From Bacteroidales bacterium (lineage in GTDB: Bacteria > Bacteroidota > Bacteroidia > Bacteroidales > WCHB1-69): a stretch of DNA of 64,000 nt. The DNA lies in assembly GCA_016288655.1 (NCBI GenBank), contig JAEEKX010000034.1:31845-95844 (forward strand), in the 5' to 3' direction. The stretch's first letter is position 1. Each line of letters opens with the position of its first letter. The notes below the pieces were generated by a model, which was not told the origin of the DNA, ran no database searches, and saw only the letters and a program-made list of their open reading frames with translations. Below are positions 43,336-48,953 of this stretch, piece after piece. Both the position numbers and the translations under genes were made by a program.

Positions 43336-44250
43336 TTACATCCACCTCTTCCGCTTCAGGAAGATGAGCAGGATGATGACCGTGAGCAGGCACACGCCCA
43401 TCACGCCCCAAAAAGCCCAGGACTTGTCGGCGAAGGGCAGCCCCACGTTCATGCCGTACAACCCAGTGAAAAACGTCAACGGGAGTACGATGGTGGAGAT
43501 GAGTGTCAGCACGCGCATGATCTCGTTGGTGCGGTTGGTCTGCAACGAGTCGAACGTGCTCGACAGGCCGGCCACCAACTCGCCGTAGTCATCCACCATA
43601 TCCCACATCTTCTGGTAGAAGTCGAGGATATTGCCCCAGTAGTCCTCCATGTCCTCCACGTAACCCTTCACATCTCCGGATTCAAAACGGTGGAACAGAC
43701 GCAGTTGCGGCTTGAACATGGTGTTCAGCTGGATGATGTTCTTGCGGAAGATCGACATCCGTTCGATGGTCTTCTCCGACTTGCGGCTGAAAAGGTCGCG
43801 GTTGATGGCCTCCAACTCCGTGCCCAGCCGCTCCACCAAAAGGAACGTCTCCTTCATCATGCGATAAAGCACTTTATAAAGGATACCGTCGCTGGTGCCG
43901 CCGATCTGCTCGTCGTCGTCCATCTCCTCGGGATCCATCTTGGTCAAATCGAAAAGATCCTGCACCACATAGTGCGAGTTGCCGACCGTGATCAGAAAGT
44001 CGTGTCCCCAGAAGATCTTGGTCTCCTCGGTACGCACAAGGTTGGTGCGCGCATCCAGCAGCGGGAAGTGCAAGACAAGGAAATAATAGTCGTCGTAAAC
44101 GTCGATTTTCGGGCGTTGCACGAAACTGTAGCAGTCCTCAATATCCAAGGGGTGAAAGTGGAAGTTGTTCCTCAAGAAGTCCATATCCTCCACCGTGGGA
44201 TTCGTAATATGATGCCATTTCAGCACACCAAAACTAATGGTGTCAACCAT
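43336..44250 (-). CDS. corA: CorA-family magnesium/cobalt transport protein
   Basis: A 304-residue CorA-like channel. The cytoplasmic N-terminal part (about 1-240) is alpha/beta then helical (HWHxI/DIEDCYSFVQRPKIDVYDDYYFLVLHFP). Two C-terminal transmembrane helices follow. The first ends in the signature FFTGLYGMNVGLPF with the GMN selectivity motif. The second is FWGVMGVCLLTVIILLIFL, followed by a basic tail KRKRWM. Ion preference (Mg, Co, Ni or Zn efflux in relatives) cannot be read from sequence. The leader is unusual: an AGGAGGTG ribosome binding site just before the ATG. A TATTTTTG element lies about 72 bases upstream. Confidence 0.93.
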   Translation of the reverse strand: MVDTISFGVLKWHHITNPTVEDMDFLRNNFHFHPLDIEDCYSFVQRPKIDVYDDYYFLVLHFPLLDARTNLVRTEETKIFWGHDFLITVGNSHYVVQDLFDLTKMDPEEMDDDEQIGGTSDGILYKVLYRMMKETFLLVERLGTELEAINRDLFSRKSEKTIERMSIFRKNIIQLNTMFKPQLRLFHRFESGDVKGYVEDMEDYWGNILDFYQKMWDMVDDYGELVAGLSSTFDSLQTNRTNEIMRVLTLISTIVLPLTFFTGLYGMNVGLPFADKSWAFWGVMGVCLLTVIILLIFLKRKRWM

Positions 44251-44254
44251 TTTT

Positions 44255-44264
44255 CACCTCCTTT
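44255..44264 (-). promoter_or_regulatory. Strong Shine-Dalgarno site before corA
   Basis: The minus strand reads AAAGGAGGTGAAAAATG: AGGAGGTG is a full-strength anti-SD match five to six bases before the start. Most genes in this window have none. Confidence 0.75.
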
Positions 44265-44321
44265 CTATTAACGGATGCTGCTCTATTCTACATTCGTGTT
44301 GATATTAAAATTTTTCGGCGG

Positions 44322-44329
44322 CAAAAATA
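44322..44329 (-). promoter_or_regulatory. TAnnTTTG promoter element for corA
   Basis: The minus strand reads TATTTTTG followed by CCGCCG, giving a leader of about 65-70 bases that ends in the strong SD site. Confidence 0.6.
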
Positions 44330-44377: not shown

Positions 44378-45001
44378 TTAAATTCCATAGATTTTGGCGA
44401 AAAGCGAGACCCGCCGTTCCACCGCCCTGCTGCCAAAAAGTTGCAGATAGTCGTACATCCGCAATGCGTCCCACTGCTCGAAGACAAGACTTTCCTTCAA
44501 GGCAAATTTTCTCATATCTTCTTCTGTATCATAATATTCAGGGGAAAGATAGAAAAGGTCGAGCAGCGCTTTCTCCGGTGTCGCCATAGCAAATTCAAAC
44601 GGCGGATTTCCCTGTTTCTCGAATCCGAAAATCAAATCCTCCTTCATCCGATGAAAGTCGAAAAAACCGATCGGACAACGGAATTCGTTGGTTTTGAGAC
44701 GGGAAACGCAACTCACCTGCAATTGTATTGGGGCAGGCAGATAGCCGTGGTAAATCAGGGCGGAATGCAGGCTCACATAACTATCGCCATACATTTTATT
44801 GGCTATAAAATATTGAAAGTCACTATTTTGTAAAAATTCCGGAAAGACATAGCACCCGTTTCGCACCTTCACTAAATAGCCGTTCGCGCACCAGCGGGTA
44901 AGACTGTTCTTGTCGAAATGCCGGCCGGATGCGTCAAAGTCGCGTTTCGTCACGCAACCCGCCGACCCGAAAAGGGTCCGAAATGTCCGAAAATCCATCA
45001 T
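44378..45001 (-). CDS. AbiEi-like antitoxin-type protein, no partner toxin
   Basis: About 207 residues from the ATG pair at 45001/44998; the ORF-track start is a GTG upstream of the promoter. The N terminus (FRTFRTLFGSAGCVTKRDFD, then LTRWCANGYLVKVRNGCYVF) reads as a winged helix. After it come SYVSLHSALIYHGYLP, QLQVSCVSRLKTNEFRCPIGFFDFHR and MATPEKALLDLFYL, the pattern of AbiEi-type (type IV toxin-antitoxin) regulators. AbiEi normally precedes an AbiEii nucleotidyltransferase toxin; here the next gene is corA, 127 bases away, and no partner is present. It may be a stand-alone transcription regulator or a leftover antitoxin. The -7 element sits only six to nine bases before the start. Confidence 0.72.
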   Translation of the reverse strand: MMDFRTFRTLFGSAGCVTKRDFDASGRHFDKNSLTRWCANGYLVKVRNGCYVFPEFLQNSDFQYFIANKMYGDSYVSLHSALIYHGYLPAPIQLQVSCVSRLKTNEFRCPIGFFDFHRMKEDLIFGFEKQGNPPFEFAMATPEKALLDLFYLSPEYYDTEEDMRKFALKESLVFEQWDALRMYDYLQLFGSRAVERRVSLFAKIYGI

Positions 45002-45006
45002 GGCGG

Positions 45007-45014
45007 CAAAAATA
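45007..45014 (-). promoter_or_regulatory. TAnnTTTG element immediately before the AbiEi-like gene
   Basis: The minus strand reads ATGTATTTTTGCCGCCATGATG. Transcription should begin at or next to the start codon, so the mRNA is probably leaderless. Confidence 0.6.
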
Positions 45015-45077
45015 CATGTTTTTTCGTCACGATACAAAAAATTTTCACGCACGCGAGGTTAATTCGGGAAAAACACG

Positions 45078-45085
45078 TACTTTTG
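45078..45085 (+). promoter_or_regulatory. TAnnTTTG promoter element for the bat operon
   Basis: TACTTTTG followed by CTG lies 28 bases before the ATG at 45114. Confidence 0.7.
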
Positions 45086-45113: not shown

Positions 45114-47150
45114 ATGTTAAGGTTTGAAAATCAGGGAATTTTATACTTGTTGCTGGTGATACTCCTCTTCATCGGCATCTATGTGATCGTCTATTTTGTG
45201 GATCGAAGCCGAATGCGGCGGAACATCGACCCCGTTTTATTGAAGAAGTTGATGCCCGGGCGGCGGAAGCTGATGCCTCACCTGAAATTCGCGCTCTGCA
45301 TGATGGCGTTGGCCTGCCTGATTGTGGCGGCGGCGAACCCGCAGACGCCGGGGAAAGAGATCACGGCCGACCGCAGCGGTGTGGACGTGCTCTTCTGCCT
45401 GGACGTCTCGAAGAGTATGGAGGCGAAAGACGTACAGCCCTCGCGCTTGGAGGCCTGCAAGATGGCCATCAACCACTGCATCAACCGAATGAGCGGCAGC
45501 CGTGTGAGTGCAGTCATTTTCGCCGGCACCGCCGAAGTCGCCCTGCCCGCCACCACCGATTACGAAGCGGCCAAGAGCACAATCAACCTACTCACTACCA
45601 GAAAGATAGATATTCAAGGCACTAACCTTGCCGAGGCGATGTACCGCTCCGCCGCAGCGTTGGGCGTTCCCATCCACGATGAGGACGCCGACGCCCCCGA
45701 CACGGCCGACGTCACCCAAAAGGCCGTCATCCTCATCTCCGACGGCGAGGACCACGCCCCCGACGCCGTCGCAGCCGCCCAACAACTCAACAGGCACGGC
45801 ATCCTCGTCTTCACCATCGGCATCGGCACGCCGACGGGCGCCACCATCCCCGACGGCAACGACGTGAAACGCGACAACACCGGACGCCCCGTCGTCACCA
45901 AACTGAACGAACAGATCCTCATGGACATCGCCGAGAAGGGCGGCGGCACCTACACCCACGCCGACAACGTCCACTCCAGTTTCGACGCGCTCTTCGACGA
46001 GATCGACCAAATGGCCCGCACCGACTTCGGCAAGGTGAAACTCAAGACCTACGAGTCCCAGTTCCAATATCCGTTGGCGCTCGGTCTCATCCTGCTCGTC
46101 GTAGAGGGATTCCTGCTCATGGGCAAGCCCCGTCGCCGGCTCACCACACTGCTGCTGCTCCCCGTCATCGGACTGCTTTTCGTCCAGTGCCACAAAGGCG
46201 ACGGTACCCGCGAGAACCCGCTGCTCGCCACCGCCAACGGACAGTTCGCCCGCGCCGACTCCATCGCCCACGAAGGAGACCCCTACGACCTGCCCGCCGA
46301 CGCCGACACGCTGTACCACAAAGCCCTGCGCACCTACCAGCAAGTCGCCACCCAATACCCGGACTTCCGCGACCAGGCCCTTTTCAACCAGATCGACGCC
46401 AACTACCGCATCGGCAACTACGACTCCATCCCGCACCTCGCCGACTCCCTTTTGCAACTCACTACCGACCAGAAACTGACCGCCGACATCCACTACAACG
46501 TCGGCAATGCCCACCTCGCCAACGGACAATACCTCATGCAGTCCGCCCAAGCCGAAGGCAACGACTCTCTCAAGAACCTCGCTTACAACGAGTACGGAGC
46601 CGCCATCGAATCCTACAAGTCCTGCCTGCGCATCCACCCCTCCGACATGGACGCCAAATACAACTTGACCTATGCCCAGAAGCTCCTCCCCAAGGGCCAA
46701 GGTGGCGGCGGTGGCGGCAACGGCCAACAGAACCAAAATCAGCAACAGCAAGGACAAAACGGCCAAAACCAGCAACAGCAAGGACAGAACGGCCAAGACC
46801 AACAACAACAAGGACAGAACCAACAGCAGGACAAACAGAACCAGCAGGGGCAGTCGGGACAAGACCAGCAACAGCAGCGCAAGGAGGAGCAGAAGCAACG
46901 TGGCAACTCCGGCAAGGAGGGACAGGAGCAGCAGAAAGAGAAGCAGCCCCAGCCGCAAGAGGGAGAGAAGCAGCAGAATCAACAGCCGAAACAGCAGGGG
47001 CAGGGACAGCCGCGACAGCCCAAGAGCGACGAGCAGAAAACCACGGAACGCCAACTGAACGCCCTGCGCCAAAACGACAAGAACAGACAAAAAGAGCACT
47101 ACCAACTCACCCTCCCCCAACAACGCCAGAACATGGAGAAGGATTGGTAA
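45114..47150 (+). CDS. BatB-BatC fusion: VWA domain membrane protein with TPR and Gln-rich tail
   Basis: 678 residues. Two N-terminal transmembrane helices (LYLLLVILLFIGIYVIVYF and LKFALCMMALACLIVAAA). Then a von Willebrand A domain with the MIDAS motif CLDVSKSM (about residue 100) and LISDGEDHA. A third helix is at about 320-338 (YPLALGLILLVVEGFLLMG). A second hydrophobic stretch ends LLFVQC at Cys359, like a lipoprotein signal. TPR-like repeats follow to about 525 (ADIHYNVGNAHLANGQYL, then YKSCLRIHPSDMDAKYNLTYA), then a Gln-rich tail. In Bacteroides-type bat clusters the VWA part is BatB and the TPR part BatC, as separate genes. moxR and batA are absent upstream. Bat proteins are linked to stress tolerance; the mechanism is unsettled. 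Confidence 0.88.
   Translation: MLRFENQGILYLLLVILLFIGIYVIVYFVDRSRMRRNIDPVLLKKLMPGRRKLMPHLKFALCMMALACLIVAAANPQTPGKEITADRSGVDVLFCLDVSKSMEAKDVQPSRLEACKMAINHCINRMSGSRVSAVIFAGTAEVALPATTDYEAAKSTINLLTTRKIDIQGTNLAEAMYRSAAALGVPIHDEDADAPDTADVTQKAVILISDGEDHAPDAVAAAQQLNRHGILVFTIGIGTPTGATIPDGNDVKRDNTGRPVVTKLNEQILMDIAEKGGGTYTHADNVHSSFDALFDEIDQMARTDFGKVKLKTYESQFQYPLALGLILLVVEGFLLMGKPRRRLTTLLLLPVIGLLFVQCHKGDGTRENPLLATANGQFARADSIAHEGDPYDLPADADTLYHKALRTYQQVATQYPDFRDQALFNQIDANYRIGNYDSIPHLADSLLQLTTDQKLTADIHYNVGNAHLANGQYLMQSAQAEGNDSLKNLAYNEYGAAIESYKSCLRIHPSDMDAKYNLTYAQKLLPKGQGGGGGGNGQQNQNQQQQGQNGQNQQQQGQNGQDQQQQGQNQQQDKQNQQGQSGQDQQQQRKEEQKQRGNSGKEGQEQQKEKQPQPQEGEKQQNQQPKQQGQGQPRQPKSDEQKTTERQLNALRQNDKNRQKEHYQLTLPQQRQNMEKDW
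46735..46830 (+). repeat. Tandem Gln/Asn-rich coding repeat in the BatB-BatC protein
   Basis: AACCAGCAACAGCAAGGACA-type units of about 39 bases (QNGQNQQQQG, QNGQDQQQQG, QNQQQDKQ) open a roughly 110-residue low-complexity Gln-rich region. It is expected to vary in length between strains. Confidence 0.75.
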
Positions 47151-47171: not shown

Positions 47172-48953
47172 ATGAAGGCAATAAAGTCATTTTTACTATT
47201 GATGTTCCTGCTGACGACCGCCACCGTCGGCCACGCCCAAACCTGCACGGCCCAGGCCCCCGCCAAAGTCGGCATCAACCAACAATTCCAATATAGCGTC
47301 ACCCTCAACCAGGACGGCAACATCTCCTCAACCGACTTCGGCCCCTTCACCAAGGTCGGCGGACCCTCATCCAGCACATCCACTTCCATCAGCTTTGTCA
47401 ACGGTCAGCAATCCACCTCGCACACCACCACCTTCACCTACGTACTGAAACCCACCAAGTTGGGGAAACAGACCATCCCGGGCGTCACCTGCAATGTCGG
47501 CGGCAAATCGGTGAAGAGCAACGCCGTCACCGTGGAAGTCACCAAAGAAGACCAGCAGACCCAGCAGCAGCGGCAACGTTTCCGCGATCCCTTCGAAGAT
47601 TTCTTCCGCGATCCCTGGGGCGACCAACAACGCCAGCAGCAGCAACAGCCCTCTTACGACGTCTTCGTCCGCGGCTCCGTCTCCAACACTGCCCCTTTCC
47701 AAGGCGAAGTGGTGACCGTGGTTTACAAACTTTACACTTACAACGTCGCCCAATGGCAGGCCAACGACGTGAAGATGCCCCAGCAAACCGACCTGTGGAC
47801 CTACCGCCTTGACGACCCCGACGGCAAGTTGGTGGAGAAGACCGAGACCATCAACGGCAAACGCTACTCCGTCTATGAGATCTACCGTTCGGCCGTGGCA
47901 CCGCAGAAGAGCGGCTCGCTCACCATCAGCCCCTTCTCCCTCGACATGACCATGATCGTCGGACGCGGCTTCTGGGCATCCCGCTCTGACCAGACGATCA
48001 AATCCAACACGCTGACACTCAACGTCAAGCCGCTGCCGAAAGCCAACCGTCCCGACGACTTCTCCGGCTTGGTCGGGCAATACGAACTCACCTCCACCCT
48101 CGCCCCCACCGAAGTCGATGTCAACGACGCCGCCGACTTCACTGTCACCCTCTCTGGCAAGGGCGCCATACAACTCGCCGACCTGCCCGAGTTCAACTTC
48201 CCCGACAACATCGACGTCACCGACCCCATCATCGACGACAAGGTGGCCACCGCCAACGGATTAGGCGGGAAACGCACCTTCAAATACGTGCTCATCCCCC
48301 GCCAGAACGGCACCTACGTCATCCCCGCCACCACCTTCTCCTACTTCGACCCCACTTCCCAGACCTACAAACAACTATCCACGCAGGCCTGCTCCATGAA
48401 GGTGAAGGGCGAAGGATCCACCGCCAAGAAGAAAAAAGAGAACGACACCGTCGAAGCCGACGGCACCACTGACGTCGTCGGAAATCTCAAGGCCTTCTTC
48501 AGCAAATACTGGATCCTCTTCGTCCTCATTCCCGTGCTCATCATCGTGGTCATCCTCGTGCTGCTGCTCGTCCGCCTGCTCCAGCGGTCGAAGGGAAAGA
48601 AGAGTCCCGCACAGAAGCGGGTGCGGCATGCCAACCGCATCGCCGCCCGACGCCTCAAGAAGGCGCAGAAACTGATGACCGCCGGCGAAGACGACGCCTT
48701 CTTCGAAGAGGTGGCGCACGCCCTGTGGGACTACCTCGGGCACAAGTTCCGCATCCCGCTCGCCGACCTCTCCATCGACGCCGTGCGCAACAAACTCATC
48801 GACAAGGGAATGAGCGAAGACGAGATCGCCCAGTTCACCCAAACCCTCGACAACTGCGAGTACTCCCGCTTCGCCCCGGGCGACAAAGCCGAGATGATGA
48901 GCCAACTGTACGACCAGGCCCGCGACTTCATCACCCGCATGGAAGGCAAATAA
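47172..48953 (+). CDS. batD: BatD family protein
   Basis: 593 residues with a signal peptide (ending TVGHAQ). A large periplasmic beta-sandwich region follows: QAPAKVGINQQFQYSVTLNQ, FGPFTKVGGPSSSTSTS, then PYDVFVRGSVSNTAPFQGEVVTVVYKLYT-like repeats typical of BatD. One transmembrane helix at about 455-480 (ILFVLIPVLIIVVILVLLLV) precedes a cytoplasmic basic C terminus with a helical domain (AKKAQKLM, then GHKFRIPLADLSIDAVRNKLIDKG). It starts 21 bases after the fused BatB-BatC gene and probably forms a membrane complex with it. Gln-rich around residue 130 (QQTQQQRQRF). No batE is found downstream. Confidence 0.9.
   Translation: MKAIKSFLLLMFLLTTATVGHAQTCTAQAPAKVGINQQFQYSVTLNQDGNISSTDFGPFTKVGGPSSSTSTSISFVNGQQSTSHTTTFTYVLKPTKLGKQTIPGVTCNVGGKSVKSNAVTVEVTKEDQQTQQQRQRFRDPFEDFFRDPWGDQQRQQQQQPSYDVFVRGSVSNTAPFQGEVVTVVYKLYTYNVAQWQANDVKMPQQTDLWTYRLDDPDGKLVEKTETINGKRYSVYEIYRSAVAPQKSGSLTISPFSLDMTMIVGRGFWASRSDQTIKSNTLTLNVKPLPKANRPDDFSGLVGQYELTSTLAPTEVDVNDAADFTVTLSGKGAIQLADLPEFNFPDNIDVTDPIIDDKVATANGLGGKRTFKYVLIPRQNGTYVIPATTFSYFDPTSQTYKQLSTQACSMKVKGEGSTAKKKKENDTVEADGTTDVVGNLKAFFSKYWILFVLIPVLIIVVILVLLLVRLLQRSKGKKSPAQKRVRHANRIAARRLKKAQKLMTAGEDDAFFEEVAHALWDYLGHKFRIPLADLSIDAVRNKLIDKGMSEDEIAQFTQTLDNCEYSRFAPGDKAEMMSQLYDQARDFITRMEGK

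Follow-up and report, generated by a model that had tools for sequence, protein, structure and literature searches.

Within the window, that is, the whole stretch of 64,000 nucleotides analyzed, the minus strand carries a toxin-less AbiEi-type coding sequence (44378..45001) of 207 residues, which opens with a tandem ATG ATG at 45001-44996 and closes with a stop codon at 44380-44378. A GTG start farther upstream, at 45052, was rejected, since several orthologs have in-frame stops within the extra N-terminus that it would add. The downstream gene, corA (43336..44250, minus strand), is read in the same direction from its own promoter; on the other side, a divergent VWA-domain gene of the Bat cluster (45114..47150, plus strand), for which a separate -7 box, TACTTTTG, lies at 45078-45085, is followed by BatD (47172-48953). 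The initial annotation had noted that only corA, and no toxin, was near: no toxin is indeed adjacent, while corA, although close by in this window, adjoins the orphan gene in only 8 of 12 genomes, in varying arrangement and orientation, and the orphan persists where corA lies elsewhere. We therefore rejected corA as an obligate functional partner. The other neighbors are varied housekeeping-type genes, so that none is convincing in that role.

By its PADLOC profile match and its predicted wHTH-plus-CTD fold, the 207-residue product belongs to the AbiEi family as a protein. The PADLOC AbiEi profile PDLC02241 covers residues 2-204 of 207 (E=3e-54), and a second PADLOC AbiEi profile also matches the protein along its full length, at E=2e-45; NCBIfam TAA_AbiEi matches at E=1e-8, under its curated cut-off, and Pfam AbiEi_4 reaches 21.7 bits where its cut-off is 25. 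The AlphaFold model (pLDDT 89.9) has as its top Foldseek match in the PDB the AbiEi of S. agalactiae, 6Y8Q (E=6.5e-7, probability 1.00, 203 columns; whole-chain TM 0.53), with M. tuberculosis Rv2827c as the runner-up. A PDB sequence search with the protein returned nothing relevant, and these relatives surfaced only by fold search. In the model, the segment encoded at 44843..45001 (minus strand) contains helices at residues 4-14, 19-25, and 31-39 and strands at 44-46 and 50-52, following the AbiEi domain layout (PMC7319586); the region of the recognition helix H3 comprises residues 29-39, FDKNSLTRWCA (44885..44917, minus strand). The C-terminal domain (CTD; residues 54-207, 44381..44842, minus strand), which is the antitoxicity domain in studied AbiEi proteins, is present at full length. 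The orphan thus resembles S. agalactiae AbiEi (6Y8Q; PMC3985639, PMC7319586) in size and in its two-domain wHTH and CTD fold; it differs in having no AbiEii partner, no operator at its promoter, a short or absent leader, and substitutions at CTD residues that are invariant in paired proteins.

The absence of a toxin extends well beyond the window. The initial annotation had called for a genome-wide search for AbiEii, the DUF1814 nucleotidyltransferase toxin of the type IV AbiE system. Such a search found no PF08843 match anywhere in the 2.26-Mb, 93%-complete assembly of 50 contigs, and a profile made from the AbiEii toxins of the closest pairs likewise gave no match in this genome at E<=10; no AbiEii lies beside the gene or elsewhere in the assembly. 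Among the 13 genus genomes, all of them draft assemblies, 12 carry an ortholog with an intact full-length reading frame (46-63% identity), and none of the 12 orthologs has an adjacent AbiEii. Five of the 12 carrier genomes have no AbiEii at all (G000, which is the present genome, and G079, G083, G085, and G086). The single genome without an ortholog, G077, is also without corA. The proposal that the gene is an orphan therefore holds, and it is much better supported than a single window allows, because orphanhood is genus-wide and ancestral. One alternative is that the gene still belongs to a toxin-antitoxin pair, whose toxin is of an unrecognized kind and encoded elsewhere in the chromosome. 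Orphan antitoxins with unrecognized toxins have been proposed before (PMC7192599), and the genome does encode two small NTP_transf_2 proteins; we nevertheless consider this improbable, given the failure of both toxin searches in this genome, the housekeeping-type neighbors that vary between genomes, and the operator loss described below, which speaks against a dosage-controlled pair.

To place the orphan among its relatives, we drew a comparison set of the best 80 loci from an alignment-based scan of the named genome collection; a scan with the single protein had found no relative. The 80 loci comprise 10 genus orthologs, from Bacteroidales MAGs largely of herbivore gut origin (yak, sheep, and buffalo rumen; sheep cecum; horse feces), and 70 loci from outside the genus at 34-44% identity. 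AbiEii lies directly downstream in 69 of these 70 extra-genus loci, with the toxin cut by a contig end in three. The lone exception among these 70 is a locus of Paludibacter sp. 47-17 (L111), where an AbiEi gene with a complete palindromic operator has no AbiEii directly downstream; the opposite strand carries a distant AbiEii-like ORF some 4.5 kb off. In paired Bacteroidales systems (L077, L080, and L137, for example), which are about 34-44% identical to the orphan over the full length and share the recognition-helix motif FD(K/R)NNLTRW, AbiEi overlaps AbiEii, the -7 box lies 17-37 nt from the ATG, and an operator mostly surrounds the box, in all of which the orphan differs. We also noted relA near the paired AbiE genes of one locus (L014), in a differing orientation that we attribute to coincidence.

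In a tree of 96 proteins, the toxin-less proteins form one clade (support 100/100), which nests among paired proteins (99/99) when rooted with other paired AbiEi as outgroup, with some long branches that leave the fine placement uncertain. Because the toxin-less clade lies within paired AbiEi, the toxin was lost once in this lineage rather than never gained, and the tree points to a single AbiEii loss before the greater part of this Bacteroidales genus of herbivore guts diversified. Two further loci, L019 (genome G034, contig C81) and L169 (the second locus of genome G080, contig C29), encode an intact AbiEi followed by only a C-terminal remnant of AbiEii. These look like recent losses of the toxin that took place outside the main toxin-less clade, and they suggest that loss of the toxin with retention of the antitoxin recurs in the family.

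The promoter of the orphan gene fits the Bacteroidota sigma-A consensus TTTG / TAnnTTTG (PMC7366714, PMC6847099). A -7 element, TATTTTTG, occupies 45007..45014 on the minus strand, with a -33 element, TTTG, 20 bases farther upstream (45035..45038, minus strand); position 45014, at which the initial annotation had ended the feature, is the 5' end of this -7 box. That annotation also described an element ending six bases before ATG-ATG and proposed a leaderless transcript. The element and the short gap are borne out, the gap being five bases (CCGCC), and the likely leaderless state gains support from the -7 and -33 elements. Because the final G of the -7 box sits at -5 in F. johnsoniae (PMC6847099), we predict transcription to start at 45002 (±1) on the minus strand, 1 nt before the ATG, with a leader of 0-2 nt, and the orphan mRNA is thus likely to be near-leaderless in this genome. 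Such an arrangement appears uncommon: in about 440 kb of the same genome a -7 box lies 3-8 nt before the ATG at 2 of roughly 231 ORF starts, the orphan gene included, a background that rests on crude ORF calling and is rough only. In the other short-gap gene (L214, contig C4, near 9533), 4 nt separate the -7 box, TAATTTTG, from the ATG, and a second leaderless mRNA is likely. Leaderless mRNAs are scarce elsewhere in the phylum as well: about 3.7% of 5' UTRs in B. thetaiotaomicron are shorter than 10 nt (PMC7366714), and the leaderless fraction in F. psychrophilum is 5.5% (PMC9723704).

Paired relatives have a different promoter layout, with 17-37 bases (median 26) between the -7 box and the ATG. 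Among the 11 toxin-less orthologs analyzed, the box lies 5-13 bases before the ATG in 8, for a predicted leader of 0-9 nt; the other three (L068-L070) have no recognizable -7 box near the start, so that the short leader is not universal in the clade. Judged against dinucleotide-preserving shuffles, the -7 box is flanked by a significant inverted repeat in 58 of the 87 relatives that fall outside the clade versus 0 of 11 clade members. Repeats that bracket the promoter are what AbiEi autoregulation would lead one to expect (PMC7319586, PMC3985639). The predicted operator of one large paired group (within L071-L140) reads TTTTGTTTCTAAAA-N18-TTTTAGAAACAAAA, the second arm falling within the leader, and other paired groups in this set use different arms, for example TTTATTCAA / TTGAATAAA. 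Most simply, self-repression, the leader, and the operator arm that it held were lost together. Binding of the gene product to its own promoter, suggested as a test by the initial annotation, is accordingly disfavored, because the 11 clade members analyzed have lost the operator typical of paired relatives. Autoregulation could instead continue through a changed operator that the repeat scan missed, such as half-sites inside the coding sequence, and by eye CGAAAAAACAT and ATGGATTTTCG do flank the orphan's own -7 box with a spacing like that of paired operators. These two arms are not conserved, however, and no inverted repeat rises above the shuffled background in the 11 orthologs, which makes continued autoregulation of this kind quite doubtful.

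The orphan promoter resembles that of neighboring corA, with TATTTTTGCCGCC common to both, and the 5' leader of corA drew our attention in its own right. This leader (44251-44329 of the window, minus strand; also L141-L152 and L245-L252) is strongly conserved and consists, in order, of a -7 box, (C/G)GAATGTAG(A/G)A.TTTAG, and GAAAGGAGGT(G/T). The last of these is a near-perfect Shine-Dalgarno sequence 3-5 nt before the start; such sequences are rare in the phylum, and we find one at 1 of about 231 starts in some 440 kb of this genome. An invariant ATGTAG within the leader forms a start-stop pair. A sequence model of the leader matches 35 of 104 family genomes from 10 genera, and corA lies downstream of the match in all 8 extra-genus loci checked. 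We found no common secondary structure and no Rfam match for this leader, which we regard as a candidate cis-regulatory leader of the Mg2+ transporter gene.

The orphan protein is under strong purifying selection, with dN/dS of 0.057-0.069 between close ortholog pairs. It might be argued that the gene is a decaying remnant of a toxin-antitoxin locus, since toxin and operator are gone and the remnants at L019 and in G080 show that such decay occurs; this is very improbable for a reading frame that stays intact and full length in 12 genomes at 46-63% identity with dN/dS near 0.06. The recognition helix is unusually conserved. Mean pairwise identity over residues 29-39 is 0.785 in the clade versus 0.673 (SD 0.035) in matched paired sets, and none of 2,000 matched subsets reaches the clade value; each subset comprised 11 paired proteins of equal overall divergence, with phylogeny unmatched, so that the effect size is approximate. 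The CTD is conserved about as well as the rest of the protein and has a one-residue insertion in the toxin-less clade. Three of its positions are replaced in the whole clade: Arg167, which all 80 paired proteins share, by Ala, and Leu166 and Tyr85, both invariant or nearly so among the 80 paired antitoxins, by Phe and His, respectively.

These substitutions bear on the main alternative, that the protein is a standing anti-addiction antitoxin, made constitutively and neutralizing AbiEii encoded on mobile elements or elsewhere in the genome. AbiE pairs are common in the family, where 72 of 104 genomes have AbiEii, and the CTD, which alone suffices for antitoxicity in studied AbiEi (PMC7319586), is full length and constrained in the orphan. 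Two genomes look suggestive, G081 with the orphan and an intact close pair, and G080 with the orphan and a related pair of whose toxin only a remnant is left. Such a remnant also occurs where no orphan is present (L019), however, and the share of genomes with related pairs is no lower in the genus (2/13) than among the other family members (about 17/91). With Arg167 replaced in every clade member and invariant in all 80 paired CTDs, we judge an anti-addiction role to be unlikely, though far from negligible.

The reading we favor is that the protein is an ex-antitoxin that, after a single AbiEii loss, was kept by selection as a constitutive, trans-acting DNA-binding regulator; judged from sequence comparisons, we put its chances at about even. 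The comparisons show the single AbiEii loss and the retention of the antitoxin since then, under selection, as a stand-alone protein; on the favored reading it would be made constitutively from a leaderless or near-leaderless mRNA. The product would act in trans by sequence-specific binding at one or more chromosomal sites elsewhere, and would have largely given up toxin neutralization. Retained DNA binding is favored over toxin control because the recognition helix is conserved and the paired-invariant CTD residues are changed, and action away from its own promoter is suggested by the missing operator, as proposed for Rv1044. Between the two roles that the initial annotation had offered, a general regulator or a decoy antitoxin, the conserved helix and replaced CTD residues thus lean toward the regulator and make the decoy the less favored. 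Somewhat more tentatively, and at rather less than an even chance, we propose a genus-wide regulator that arose in an orderly way, by loss of the toxin and by joint loss of the operator and leader, which ended self-repression, its helix frozen on new chromosomal targets and its CTD freed from toxin recognition.

Studied relatives offer precedents for such a role. In AbiEi proteins examined so far, the CTD alone neutralizes the toxin and repression needs the full-length protein (PMC7319586, PMC3985639). M. tuberculosis Rv1044, an AbiEi relative without identifiable inverted repeats in its own promoter, binds DNA but not that promoter, and regulation elsewhere has been proposed for it (PMC7319586); unlike the orphan, Rv1044 retains its toxin, Rv1045. 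The AbiEi of M. huakuii acts as a wider regulator (PMC8436566). A search for the ancestral-type operator as a regulon motif gave no clear enrichment in the genus genomes, with a degenerate pattern that also matches poly-T/poly-A runs and came near its reversed-pattern control in most genomes. In 440 kb of the present genome, we found one strong case of a palindrome around a -7 box, a perfect 10-bp inverted repeat, TCATTTCAAT...ATTGAAATGA (L211, contig C4, 5610-5653), upstream of a gene for a small predicted secreted or envelope protein. It was rejected as a target, being absent from the 12 other genus genomes.

Orphan antitoxins are already known, and what is new here is the clade-level variant. 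The Klebsiella orphan antitoxins (PMC7192599) likewise lack an adjacent toxin but are mostly sporadic copies in a species complex, whereas the present gene is near-fixed across a genus after one loss. The fate of antitoxins after their toxins are gone has mostly been described from scattered orphans. Here a single loss can be studied with many orthologs and a large outgroup of paired systems, so that promoter, operator, and protein can be compared before and after it, which makes it possible to test how an antitoxin is domesticated. Tyr85, Leu166, and Arg167, the residues replaced, in turn provide specific predictions of the parts of AbiEi that may serve toxin control.
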